Source: a virus. Taken from it: a stretch of DNA of 64,000 bases. Positions 111 to 31,907 of the stretch are shown piece after piece. A program made the position numbers and the translations under genes. The notes under the pieces are model-generated. The model was not told the origin of the DNA and did no database searches. It saw only the letters and a program-made list of their open reading frames with translations. The stretch spans positions 1 to 64,000 of the IMG/VR virus record IMGVR_UViG_3300031841_005424. The stretch is one strand, 5' to 3'. Positions within the stretch are counted from its first letter, which is position 1, and each line of letters opens with the position of its first letter.

Positions 111-313
111 TCTTTTTTCACCGCAAGTTTCTCAACATACGTGCAAGGCTCTTGAGTCGTCTCTCCATGTGCCCAATGAATAGTCAGGCGGTCATCTAGG
201 TGACCACTGTATGACTTACCATAAAACCCTCGCTCTACTTCAAGCACTATCCCAATCCCTACTTCGTTGTTAGAGTATTTGTGCTTTGCTCTTACCAAGT
301 CACCTACTTTCAC
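107..313 (-). CDS. KVGDLV-family small SH3/KOW-like protein
   Basis: 68 residues beginning MKVGDLVRAKH. The layout is short beta strands with a central GIVLE strand and a late W residue, as in SH3/KOW-type barrels that open with a 'GD.V' strand. It is one of about ten paralogs in the first 11 kb of the window. It overlaps its downstream neighbour by 4 nt (ATGA) and the upstream gene by 4 nt, so it is part of a tightly coupled operon. Function is unknown; small KOW-like folds usually bind RNA, ribosomes or protein, but nothing here shows a partner. Confidence 0.75.
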   Translation of the reverse strand: MKVGDLVRAKHKYSNNEVGIGIVLEVERGFYGKSYSGHLDDRLTIHWAHGETTQEPCTYVEKLAVKKE

Positions 314-525
314 TCTTTGTTTTCCTCACGAAATATTCCGTTCTCTTCAGTAAGAACCATAACTTCGTATTTATTGGTGAGGGTGTTCCACAACTCTTTT
401 CCAGCAACAGAACACTCTTTTCCAAAATAACCTTTCAGCCACTGATGCCGTTCCCAAGAGTTGGGCATAGGAACAAAAATAGAACCTGCTTCATTGTTAG
501 TTCTTATGAACTGACATTGTTTCAT
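310..525 (-). CDS. Hypothetical small protein
   Basis: 71 residues starting MKQCQFIRTNNEAG, preceded by a GGGAG ribosome site 8 nt upstream. It has a 'YEVMVLTEENGIF' strand pair near the C-terminus that resembles the last strands of the neighbouring KVGDLV-type barrels, but the N-terminal GD motif is absent. It is the first gene downstream of the structured RNA at 540-779 and could be co-transcribed with it or from read-through. I do not recognise a family. Confidence 0.65.
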   Translation of the reverse strand: MKQCQFIRTNNEAGSIFVPMPNSWERHQWLKGYFGKECSVAGKELWNTLTNKYEVMVLTEENGIFREENKE

Positions 526-539
526 TCTTTATTCTCCCT

Positions 540-570
540 AAAAAGGTGTTAGGCAACCAACCCACCTAAC
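540..570 (-). terminator. Possible terminator hairpin of structured RNA
   Basis: On the minus strand a 6-bp stem (GTTAGG / CCTAAC, 565-570 with 548-553) with an 11-nt loop is followed by ACC and five T (540-544). The loop is large, so it is a moderate terminator at best. Confidence 0.4.
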
Positions 571-779
571 TGACTGTTTCCAGTCCCACCCGCAGATTAG
601 CAATCATGGAGTTTATCCCTCTCCCGCTTCATCCTTACAATCAGGGTATCTTCATTATACAATAGAGTGGTGGGGTTTAAACCCACAGGTGTTCAAGTAT
701 TCCTTTGTTAGACTCTTATTCCTTGAACCGGGTTGTGTATCGTCTCAGTAGAACCCTGCGTAATACCGCCTCACTCCAT
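540..779 (-). ncRNA. Structured RNA with tRNA-like cloverleaf 5' domain
   Basis: Transcription from the promoter at 786-814 would start at about 779. Bases 778-663 fold as a cloverleaf: 7-bp acceptor stem (772-778 with 663-669), 2-nt linker, 3-bp D-like arm (767-769/758-760), 1-nt linker, 5-bp anticodon-like stem (752-756/730-734) with a 17-nt loop, a 7-bp long variable-like arm (722-728/691-697) and a 5-bp T-like arm with a 7-nt loop TTTAAAC (670-686). Linkers and T-arm stacking match tRNA, but the loops are enlarged, there is no CCA and no clear anticodon. Further 3' there is a GACTG-GAAA-CAGTC hairpin (572-585) and the possible terminator. All pairings were read from sequence; function unknown. 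Confidence 0.6.
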
Positions 780-847
780 AATACAATTATACTCCATTTA
801 GAAGTAAATGTCAACCTTTTGTCTCGCACCAAGTCACCGACTTTCAT
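716..847 (-). pseudogene. Truncated KVGDLV-family gene overlapped by RNA gene
   Basis: A 43-codon frame begins MKVGDLVRDKR with the same start context as its neighbours (14-nt overlap with the preceding gene, GAGG 6-7 nt upstream). After residue 11 the sequence no longer resembles the family, and codons 12-20 coincide with the -35 to -10 region of the promoter at 786-814; the rest lies inside the cloverleaf RNA. The simplest reading is a family copy whose body was replaced by the RNA cassette. A short functional peptide cannot be excluded. Confidence 0.5.
786..814 (-). promoter_or_regulatory. Consensus sigma70 promoter for the structured RNA
   Basis: TTGACA (809-814), 17-bp spacer, TATAAT (786-791) on the minus strand: a perfect match to both hexamers at ideal spacing. 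The predicted start (about 779) falls 1-2 nt before the acceptor-like stem of the cloverleaf. Confidence 0.85.
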
Positions 848-1019
848 TGATAACCTCACATTCTTCTTGGATATATTTCTTAGAAAAAGAAATCGGTTTT
901 GTGGAATAACTACAAAGAACCTTGTACGGTTCCTTCGTCCTTAAATCACCGATACTAACAATAAGTCCTGGTGAGTCTTCGGGCCATCGTTTGTCTATTA
1001 TCAAATCACCGACTTTCAC
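834..1019 (-). CDS. KVGDLI-family small SH3/KOW-like protein
   Basis: 61 residues starting at a GTG (VKVGDLIIDKRW). This start is preferred over a GTG 12 nt upstream because GAGG sits 6 nt before it and the same GAGGTTATCA context precedes the paralogous starts. Contains the GD opening strand, a central 'GLIVSI' strand and ends EVINESR. The final codons overlap the next start by 14 nt, a junction repeated in this cluster. Function unknown. Confidence 0.7.
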   Translation of the reverse strand: MKVGDLIIDKRWPEDSPGLIVSIGDLRTKEPYKVLCSYSTKPISFSKKYIQEECEVINESR

Positions 1020-28882: not shown

Positions 28883-29651
28883 TTAATATTTCCTGTATAC
28901 TCAAAGACATAAACTTTACTTTCTCAGTGCTTTCAAATACGTTTTTGTCTATAGGTATTACGTATCTTTTGATATGTTGCACTGTTGGTTTTTTATAAAT
29001 GTCTGTGCCGTTCTTATATTTTCCTTTTTCTTTTAGTCCTTTAAATCCCATATCTTTAATAAGCTTTCTTAACTTGAATAAAACTATTGTATCAGAATAG
29101 TCGAAATCTTGCAACTGTTCTTGCCTCAGATTTGAGACGGTGACTACATCTGTGACCCACTTGGCGCCATCGATTCTCATAGAGTTGTAAAAATATGCTT
29201 GATTTAGTAGATTGTCCGAAGTTTGAACTGGATCTATGTGGGTTGTGTTTCTACCCATTCTGGATACTTTGAAATCATCTACGACCATGTAAGAATTTTC
29301 AAAGTGTTCTATTATTTTGTTTTCATGTACTACGTTCAAGGTTTCAAAGATATAACACCTTTCAAACTCAAATCTACACAAAAGATTATCACCAAACAGG
29401 CTGATAGTTTTGTCTTCTATCCTTATTTGCTTTACATCTTGGTAATCTAGGCCTTTTGCAAGGAGACCTAAGTGGAGTTTTATCTTTTGCCAGATTTGCT
29501 TTTTGTTTGTTGTACCAAATAAAGCAAAGTCATTATATTCTTCGAAAAAATAAGGCAGGTTGGGAGCACTCTGGATATGATAATGTCCGTTGAGATAAGC
29601 ATAAAGTACTGATTCTACAGAGTGTCCTATGACGACATTCTCTAAAAACAC
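28860..29651 (-). CDS. Hypothetical protein
   Basis: 263 residues, mixed alpha-beta, N-terminal 'NVVIGHSVESVLYAYLNG' and several aromatic-rich strands (FEFERCYIFETLNVV). It is coupled to the nucleotidyltransferase-like gene by a 23-nt overlap and to the lipoprotein gene upstream by 10 nt. I do not recognise a family. Confidence 0.65.
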   Translation of the reverse strand: MFLENVVIGHSVESVLYAYLNGHYHIQSAPNLPYFFEEYNDFALFGTTNKKQIWQKIKLHLGLLAKGLDYQDVKQIRIEDKTISLFGDNLLCRFEFERCYIFETLNVVHENKIIEHFENSYMVVDDFKVSRMGRNTTHIDPVQTSDNLLNQAYFYNSMRIDGAKWVTDVVTVSNLRQEQLQDFDYSDTIVLFKLRKLIKDMGFKGLKEKGKYKNGTDIYKKPTVQHIKRYVIPIDKNVFESTEKVKFMSLSIQEILNEHCTSR

Positions 29652-31855
29652 ATCTTCATCTCATCAAAGGAGGCAGGAATATACCCCACTTCATAATCAC
29701 GATCAGGAAAACTCATCAGCGCAGCTGCTTGCTCTTCGCGATTGGGGGCGCAAACTTGGTCTAATATCGTCATCAAGTTGTCGTACATCTGTTGGGCATT
29801 CGAAGTAAGATTAAAATTATTTCCTCCTGATGCGAGAGCTATTTCATCCCAACCGTAAAAAGCCAAGGCGAAAGTATATAGGGTCGTATTTGGAGACGCA
29901 GCAACAGCGGCTCGAACATCCCCCACCTGAAACCTAGGTCTCATGTAAGACTGCTCGTCCTCATCAGAAAAAACAATAATGATTCTATCCGTATTAGGTC
30001 GCCAGTTTAAAATAAAGTCGTCTTTCGGTGGCTCCGAGCCTGTACCTGGAGACCATTCTCTTTCGTTTAGTGCGACATGGCCGGGTGCCAAGTTCCTCAA
30101 AGATAACATCACCGCGTCCATTAACATCTCCATTCCGCCATCAATCTCCTCTGTATTAATGCCCATGAAAGTATTAAAGAACTGATCAAATGGAGCAATA
30201 TCCGAGATAAGGCGCAATAACTCGAACTCTGAACCCGGAAAGTCTGGGTGATCTACCCTTACTGGACCCAGGATGAGACCCCAATGAATGATATCTTCAG
30301 CCGCAAAGTGCTGACCGAAACGAGATAAAGCTGACGTCACTGCTCTGATCTCTGCATCCATGGATCCGCTAGTGTCAATGATTAGCAAAATATCTGTTTG
30401 TCTCATTTCTTCGCCAAAATCTGTTTGTCCGTCGCAATCATCATCTGCACCATTACAAATCTCCTGTTGTGGTACGGTCTCACCAGCACAAAGATCTTGA
30501 ACCCACTCTCCATCTTCGGGTGCAGCTCCCCATCTCCCTTCTTGGCAAGTTTGTTCACCAGGAGCACAAATACCCACACCTAAAGTATCTCTAGGGCCAG
30601 TATAACAAGCCTGCGACAAGCCTTCATCTATCACCTGATCGCAATCTTCATCAAAATTGTTGCAAATCTCTGAAGGGTTTGGCTGTCCTACGCGGGGATC
30701 ACAATCTTCTGGTACTTCGGGAAAGTGGGAGCAGAGCGCTCTGCACTCGCCCATTTGTAGTAGGGTACAATCAACATCCAAGCATTCACAAGTCTTAAAG
30801 CCAACGCCGCAAAGTAAAGGCTCTTCGGTGCAAGGCACCAAAACGCCAACCTGATCGGGCGTACAATCGCATTCTATTTCTTCATCGGGGGCACCGTCAC
30901 AATCATTATCCAAACCGTCACACACCTCGTCTTGTGGTTGTCTGGCTGTGCATCCGGCCCATTGAGCGCCCAAGCACACCTCAACACCTCTCTCGCAAAT
31001 AGTCTCACATTCCCTTACTAGGTTTTCGTCTGTTGCCTCGTCACAATCATTATCTATTCCATCGCATACCTCTTCTGGTAGTTCTCCGCATAAATCACAA
31101 CGGTTTCGCTGCCCTTCATCGATATCACCATCGCAATCATCGTCGATAAAGTTACAAATATCCTCACTAGGTTCGCGATTAACACAATCTACAACTACAC
31201 CGTCCCTACAAAGTGCAACGCCGGGGCCACACTCATCTTCACACAAAACCGGATCTTCATCGATCAATTCATCGCAATCGTCATCTTCTCCATTACAAAC
31301 TTCTTGTTCTCCACAATCAGTACAAGGACCATGAACAATATTCCCTTTATCACACAATACCCTTTGTCTACCTTGTCTGCCATCCTCTAGTTGGCACTCG
31401 AACCAACGCAAAAAATCCCGCGAAGAACCCGGTGGGCAATTGTGCGTAATAACACACTCACTACGATATATAATACTTGGAGGAGGACACTCTGGGTCCA
31501 CACCAAACTCACAAGGCTCTTGTTGGTCTCCGCAAATATCAATAACAACCTGCATTGAAGAAATCTCTGTTCCTCCGCTGGGTGGACAATACCATTCCTG
31601 AGTTGAGCAACATTCAGGCCGGCAAGTGCAGTACCTTTCATGGTCTAAGTTTGTAACCACGTCACAAGGCGTTAGAGATTGATCTGGTGTTCCCAAGTCT
31701 TGGGGCACAATAAACGCATAGTCAGGACCGGCATCTTTTAGCAATGCGTCCCTTCCGGAACCTATAGACGTGTCTTGTGTTATCAGCTGTTGATTTGGCG
31801 GATCATCAGAACACCCCCACAGCACAAACGCCGATAAAATAATGATTTTCTTCAT
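29642..31855 (-). CDS. Secreted lipoprotein with MopE-type repeats and a VWA domain
   Basis: 737 residues from ATG at 31855 (AAGGA 6 nt upstream). Lipoprotein signal MKKIIILSAFVLWGC (lipobox LWGC). The middle holds six Cys-Asp repeats of the form EVCNGxDDDCDGxxDEG, known as the MopE/putative metal-binding motif abundant in Myxococcota and deltaproteobacteria. The C-terminal third is a VWA domain with MIDAS 'DTSGS' and a later 'FSDEDEQS'. Would be lipid-anchored in the host envelope, calcium- or copper-binding. It sits inside the replication/nucleotide block and looks acquired from a host. Confidence 0.85.
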   Translation of the reverse strand: MKKIIILSAFVLWGCSDDPPNQQLITQDTSIGSGRDALLKDAGPDYAFIVPQDLGTPDQSLTPCDVVTNLDHERYCTCRPECCSTQEWYCPPSGGTEISSMQVVIDICGDQQEPCEFGVDPECPPPSIIYRSECVITHNCPPGSSRDFLRWFECQLEDGRQGRQRVLCDKGNIVHGPCTDCGEQEVCNGEDDDCDELIDEDPVLCEDECGPGVALCRDGVVVDCVNREPSEDICNFIDDDCDGDIDEGQRNRCDLCGELPEEVCDGIDNDCDEATDENLVRECETICERGVEVCLGAQWAGCTARQPQDEVCDGLDNDCDGAPDEEIECDCTPDQVGVLVPCTEEPLLCGVGFKTCECLDVDCTLLQMGECRALCSHFPEVPEDCDPRVGQPNPSEICNNFDEDCDQVIDEGLSQACYTGPRDTLGVGICAPGEQTCQEGRWGAAPEDGEWVQDLCAGETVPQQEICNGADDDCDGQTDFGEEMRQTDILLIIDTSGSMDAEIRAVTSALSRFGQHFAAEDIIHWGLILGPVRVDHPDFPGSEFELLRLISDIAPFDQFFNTFMGINTEEIDGGMEMLMDAVMLSLRNLAPGHVALNEREWSPGTGSEPPKDDFILNWRPNTDRIIIVFSDEDEQSYMRPRFQVGDVRAAVAASPNTTLYTFALAFYGWDEIALASGGNNFNLTSNAQQMYDNLMTILDQVCAPNREEQAAALMSFPDRDYEVGYIPASFDEMKMCF

Positions 31856-31907
31856 CTCTATTCCTTTGATTTTGTAGTGAATTTGGAACTGCTGCACATT
31901 GTATCTG

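Follow-up and report, generated by a model that had tools for sequence, protein, structure and literature searches.

The first 64 kb of the IMG/VR virus record IMGVR_UViG_3300031841_005424 (record length 78,585 bases), which is the stretch of DNA analysed here and is called the window, carries on its minus strand a perfect promoter that points into a tRNA-like cloverleaf. This raises the question of what kind of RNA the locus encodes and how it might act. Matches to T4-type families in the window included the major capsid protein, tail sheath, helicase and recombinase. The capsid protein was about 31-53% identical over aligned residues to those of the nearest isolates, and in a search with the first 24 kb none of 50,697 phage records proved to be closely related at the DNA level. 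These matches mark the window virus as a distant T4-like virus. At 29642-31897 (minus strand) lies a gene for a large protein rich in cysteine; it contains repeats of DNDCDG-like motifs and starts in the manner of a lipoprotein, which is uncommon in phages. The RNA element is surrounded by small genes, several of which are paralogs starting with MKVGDLV. One paralog, apparently the 47-aa ORF at 716-859 (minus strand), is truncated after about ten codons, and its remnant contains the promoter. No Pfam family was found for the (M/V)KVGDLV paralogs of the window; relatives of them flank the RNA in L103. The features of the locus are as follows.

786-814, minus strand: sigma70-type promoter, TTGACA-N17-TATAAT
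664-779, minus strand: cloverleaf RNA, supported by its own fold, RNAalifold and a covariance model
772-778, minus strand: acceptor 5' strand, paired with 669-663; two-sided compensatory change in 5 of 7 pairs
758-769, minus strand: D-type arm, GCG-GUAUUA-CGC, the same in every copy, the distant homolog L186 among them
730-756, minus strand: anticodon-type arm with a 17-nt loop on a 5-bp stem; in L186 both bases of one pair are changed
691-728, minus strand: variable-type arm with a 24-nt loop on a 7-bp stem; two-sided compensatory change in 5 of 7 pairs
670-686, minus strand: T-type arm, 5-bp stem and 7-nt loop, abutting the acceptor; two-sided compensatory change in 2 of 5 pairs
663-669, minus strand: acceptor 3' strand, not followed by CCA
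540-656, minus strand: 3' module of three hairpins, long form with an insert, ending in the terminator
572-585, minus strand: GAAA-capped hairpin, GACUG-GAAA-CAGUC; other complementary stem sequence in L116 and L100
540-570, minus strand: terminator-like hairpin and T run
310-525, minus strand: small gene downstream of the terminator, 71 aa; the gene here differs between the window and the near-identical L082
107-313, 834-1031, 1006-1164, 1151-1336 and 1333-1593, minus strand: run of five small paralogs starting (M/V)KVGDLV

The initial annotation had described a cloverleaf with an enlarged anticodon loop and a long variable-type arm and without CCA. We folded 664-779 (minus strand) alone and obtained a cloverleaf with all four of the arms described, and CCA is indeed absent. 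The acceptor has 7 bp and is lengthened in 11 of 18 copies by an eighth pair, A-U; a 2-nt linker (AG) separates it from the 3-bp D stem, and a 1-nt linker precedes the anticodon-type stem. The folding energy of this segment was ordinary (z = -1.14, with 23 of 200 shuffles equally good), and the predicted minimum-energy fold of the whole 240-nt transcript differs from the cloverleaf. The case for the cloverleaf is therefore comparative. RNAalifold, applied to 18 distinct copies, arrived at the cloverleaf by itself; eight of the pairs were doubly compensated, and the consensus agreed with the annotated anatomy. The comparison for compensatory changes that the annotation had proposed, with L186 included in a model-fitted alignment, gave two-sided changes in 13 of 27 pairs, and the stems were kept. 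In this alignment, 99.1% of pair cells were intact standard pairs, against 35-44% with slid partners. The annotation had also envisaged homologs that keep a protein frame and break the stems; no reading frame was open across all copies, and a protein-coding explanation was discarded. Since the D stem is the same in every copy, covariation lends it no separate support, and the invariance of the D arm is partly explained by search patterns that favoured copies with that arm. A kissing interaction between the anticodon-type and variable loops (AGAY/RUCU; CUGUUU/AAACAG in L186) showed one covarying pair but did no better than shuffled loops, and was rejected. The comparison across copies indicates that the cloverleaf is real and maintained by compensatory change, with the fold under selection.

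A 23-nt pattern from the T arm and acceptor matched six further viral contigs and a 19-nt D-arm pattern matched 25, while a separate anticodon-loop pattern recovered the same 25 contigs together with five unrelated chance matches. Including the window, there were 27 cloverleaf copies on 26 viral contigs (20 distinct; identity 75-100%). A 15-nt D-arm pattern revealed L186, which is 62-67% identical and scores 56 bits with the covariance model. L186 retains every arm, its own minimum-energy fold is the cloverleaf, and it carries inserted hairpins in the anticodon-type loop (33 nt) and in the T loop. In the records searched with the model, true copies scored 133-154 bits and the next matches 9-20 bits, mostly tRNAs; a phage tRNA-Pro sharing the acceptor sequence reached 20 bits, and a 20-bit match in a megaphage record was dismissed as no higher than ordinary tRNAs. 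Beyond the matches listed by a looser pattern scan, further distant members may exist; L118-L123 and L213-L288 were chance pattern matches and not family members. One scan of bacterial genomes gave no match and another gave nine chance matches, and blastn against INPHARED found no credible match to the cloverleaf among isolated phages. The family covariance model found no credible match in T4, Mel-JY01, immuto, RM378, P-SSM2, X1 or S-SSM7, and among records with related capsid genes no cloverleaf was found in 23 searched with model R1 or in 20 others searched with model R2. The carriers are all uncultured contigs, many of them fragmentary. These searches indicate that the same tRNA-like RNA gene is carried by several different uncultured bacterial viruses.

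The promoter, which the initial annotation had called ideal, matches the consensus at 12 of 12 positions and is the single perfect TTGACA-17-TATAAT site in the 64 kb, against 0.04 expected. Position 779, the seventh base past the -10 box, is the first base of the cloverleaf and the predicted transcription start, in keeping with the start previously placed at the first pairs of the cloverleaf. A sigma70-like promoter (at least 9 of 12 matches) was aimed at the acceptor 5' end in 10 of 15 distinct contexts, compared with 1.8% of shuffles. The position of the promoter is conserved between contexts, while the promoter sequences differ. A promoter at L110 was an artefact of the contig end and was not accepted.

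The GAAA-capped hairpin and terminator that had been reported to follow the cloverleaf are both present (585-572 and 570-540), but they belong to a separate module that also occurs without it. The 3' module stands without a cloverleaf in L124, L125, L126 and at a third place in L103, and the cloverleaf stands without the 3' module in the first copy of L103, in L105 and in L186. In L116 and L100, entire stems of the 3' module are swapped for different complementary sequence. The cloverleaf and the hairpins and terminator that follow it thus appear to be separable modules. The 3' module has a short form of 75 nt and a long form of 117 nt, and it opens with a possible leaderless mini-frame, ATGAAGTTACCCCGATTGTA (MKLPRL). 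A group I intron-like AAUCUGCGGG in the long form was dropped because it spans the insert missing from short forms. At L124:234-308 and L125:8955-9029 the 3' module alone sits right after promoters and before ribosome-binding sites, and it may function by itself as an attenuator. The genes that follow cloverleaves lacking the 3' module, at L103:3391-3895 and L105:13206-13511, share the N-terminal motif MKITKRQLRxIIREA.

The neighbours of the RNA change between carriers. Upstream contexts fell into twelve clusters, and downstream genes also differed; among comparable flank pairs, 11 shared both flanks, 9 the upstream flank only, 27 the downstream flank only and 163 neither. As far as the terminator, the window and L082 have the same sequence, and beyond it their genes differ; L103 carries two cloverleaf copies at a spacing of 2.5 kb. 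The carrier of L086 is a 232-kb phage whose portal differs from that of the window and in which no match to the T4-like sheath, capsid or helicase of the window was detectable, and the RNA region of L086 is 95% identical despite the unlike carrier. In the records of L103 and L105, sheath and helicase are just 38-41% identical to those of the window. A near-identical RNA in a phage with another portal and without T4-like capsid, sheath or helicase argues that the RNA moves between phage lineages, and horizontal spread is the simplest reading of these comparisons. A gene of about 190-200 aa near the RNA, L103:4667-5260 (plus strand), resembles residues 21-83 (40%) and 317-393 (29%) of the window major capsid protein, as if it encoded a miniature capsid-like protein; similar gene matches were found in the records of L102, L108, L110, L113, L114 and L126. 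In the L103 record (280,913 bases), the helicase match at 142711-144078 spans two TAA codons; either the gene is broken or the stop codon has been reassigned.

We then compared the RNA with tRNA (RF00005). The two share the 7-bp acceptor, the 2-nt and 1-nt linkers, a 5-bp/7-nt T arm on the acceptor and a class-II-like variable arm. In contrast to tRNA, the anticodon-type loop has 17 nt (33 nt in L186) and not 7, the 6-nt D loop has no GG (G18G19), T-loop positions 55 and 56 are not kept, and CCA is absent. The best-scoring copy with the Rfam tRNA model, L116, has a canonical T loop and reached 23.1 bits (E 0.0089; gathering score 29); the window copy gave no match even at an E of 10, and ARAGORN called no tRNA or tmRNA at the cloverleaf. 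The L186 cloverleaf begins 3-4 nt after a tRNA-Gln, with no space for a promoter between them, and judging from this position its RNA is therefore probably matured by tRNA-processing enzymes, RNase P. A tmRNA with the tag ANDDIEMFEDVAFAA lies about 290 nt past this RNA, at L186:1017-1339 (plus strand). In L114, the RNA comes directly after the 5' half of a tRNA (about 4210-4175, minus strand) whose break lies in the anticodon stem; this suggests recombination into a tRNA gene. The cloverleaf is built like a class-II tRNA whose lower half is deformed, and a common origin of the RNA and tRNA is likely. A functional odd tRNA, for example one whose anticodon loop holds a short intron, would account for the tRNA-like acceptor/T half, the linkers, the class-II variable arm and the 23.1-bit score. 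However, the anticodon-type loop is too large for decoding, G18G19 of the D loop and encoded CCA are missing, T-loop positions 55/56 are not kept, and there is no ARAGORN call; it is very unlikely that this RNA serves as a tRNA in translation.

Among known RNAs, we compared it with those encoded in the tRNA region of T4. T4 species 1 RNA (rnaC), of 139 nt, lies downstream of the tRNA genes with species 2 RNA (rnaD) beside it, and the functions of both have been described as unknown (PMC3014915, PMC9697503); an evolved T4-like phage carried a parallel mutation in the rnaD region (PMC12685909). The new RNA lies in a tRNA array in L186 and by the remains of one in L114; rnaC is a small stable phage RNA behind tRNA genes. 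Its 3' part has a T arm (CCGGG-UUCGAAU-CCCGG) and then an acceptor-like strand, and both RNAs have a long variable-type hairpin and no CCA. In rnaC, however, one long irregular arm replaces the D and anticodon arms, whereas the new RNA mostly has its own sigma70-like promoter and changing neighbours. No sequence or covariance-model (R1, R2) similarity was found between the new family and rnaC, which may be regarded as the best analogue, with a relation that is not proven. The earlier view that the RNA matches no known class holds for Rfam 15, a search of the kind the initial annotation had proposed, in which no family matched the cloverleaf above threshold and the two tRNAs of the window were the only matches. 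It needs amending as to kind, since the stable tRNA-region RNAs of T4, the tRNA-like species 1 and species 2, mean that this kind of RNA is not wholly without precedent.

Bacterial Y RNAs (YrlA) mimic tRNAs and bind Ro60. They resemble the new RNA in having a tRNA-mimicking module within a noncoding RNA, and they have been reported from phages too; the new RNA differs in being without any Rfam match, and no Ro60/TROVE gene was found in the 78.6-kb record of the window virus, which is possibly incomplete. GOLLD and ROOL are likewise structured noncoding RNAs of phages, but they are several times longer than the new RNA, and neither gave an Rfam match to it at the gathering score or at E <=10.

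We favour, at a probability of roughly 60%, the reading that the locus encodes a trans-acting tRNA-like RNA. The fold of the RNA, its independent promoters and its shifting gene neighbourhood speak for this reading, and the twelve upstream clusters together with the differing downstream genes argue against a cis role for one gene. The predicted minimum-energy fold of the whole transcript, which differs from the cloverleaf, counts against it. The cloverleaf, hairpins and terminator could instead form a cis-acting 5' leader that attenuates the next gene, possibly by sensing a tRNA-binding factor. In most copies the terminator is followed by a ribosome-binding site and a start codon, and the 3' module alone lies between promoter and gene in L124 and L125. 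A leader role also keeps some standing because a same-direction gene follows the cloverleaf in nearly every context. Nevertheless, the genes downstream of the cloverleaf differ, the terminator module is missing in the first copy of L103, in L105 and in L186, and L186 lies behind a tRNA, so that we consider a leader unlikely. The locus might also be a mobile promoter-terminator cassette that shuffles genes and drives small ones, with the cloverleaf as cargo or processing signal. The PeSLs of T4-type phages have been described as cassettes of a promoter and a stem-loop that lie between genes and bring about gene shuffling (as cited in PMC4503421). On that description, the likeness lies in a promoter and a terminator stem-loop between genes, with neighbours reshuffled at the edges (promoter and 3' module); it is borne out by the window and L082, which agree up to the terminator, and by the flank pairs that share one side only. 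The difference is a covarying tRNA-like RNA between promoter and terminator, sometimes without either, as in L186. Compensatory changes at 13 pairs would not be expected from shuffling, because shuffling needs sequence identity and not base pairing. The PeSL description fits the promoter and 3' module and leaves the cloverleaf unexplained, and as an account of the whole locus it is distinctly improbable.

Two further readings start from the loops and the lower half of the cloverleaf. The large loops are strongly conserved in sequence, and the variable loop has two GGAAUA motifs, as might be expected of a small RNA that base-pairs with mRNAs or acts as a sponge for a protein such as CsrA (GGA). 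The first GGA is missing in L104 and L115, and a CsrA sponge was rejected on this ground; antisense matches to rRNA were no better than those of shuffles, and this candidate was rejected as well. We regard such a role as quite doubtful. The D/anticodon segment, GCGGUAUUACGCAGGGU, matches 15 of 17 positions of E. coli 16S 527-543, and L186 matches 22 of 29. This resemblance to the 16S 530 loop is weak (shuffle fraction 0.11 for the window and 0.008 for L186, uncorrected for ten tests) and is a lead only. That the horizontally spread RNA joins a tRNA-like acceptor/T half to a mimic of the 530 loop and acts on the ribosome or on assembly or modification factors has, in our view, only a slim chance of being correct.

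Under the favoured reading of a trans-acting tRNA-like RNA, the product of the locus would be a noncoding RNA, small and stable, that descends from a class-II-like tRNA and works in trans by mimicking a tRNA, without serving as an adaptor. It would be transcribed by the host sigma70 RNA polymerase or, in tRNA arrays, excised by RNase P instead. The tRNA-like acceptor/T half would allow the RNA to be matured and protected like a tRNA and would give it stability. Contact with a host or phage tRNA-binding factor would be made through the D and anticodon arms, which are invariant, and through the variable loop, which is conserved. This contact would most plausibly serve as a decoy for a tRNA-acting enzyme, a step that is itself tentative and drawn by analogy. 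The preference for a decoy comes from earlier findings that phage tRNAs counter host defences which cut tRNAs (PMC10264068, PMC11555353, PMC13096335).

A second, apparently unrelated family backed by covariation, beside the two RNAs of T4, suggests that altered tRNAs are a recurring tool of phages. The family occurs in several phages, sometimes within a tRNA array, and its covariance model provides a means of finding more copies. Concrete targets for mutagenesis are provided by the D and anticodon arms, which do not vary, and by the stems with compensatory changes. If the decoy step proves true, the use of phage tRNAs against tRNA-cutting defences would extend to RNAs that are not tRNAs.
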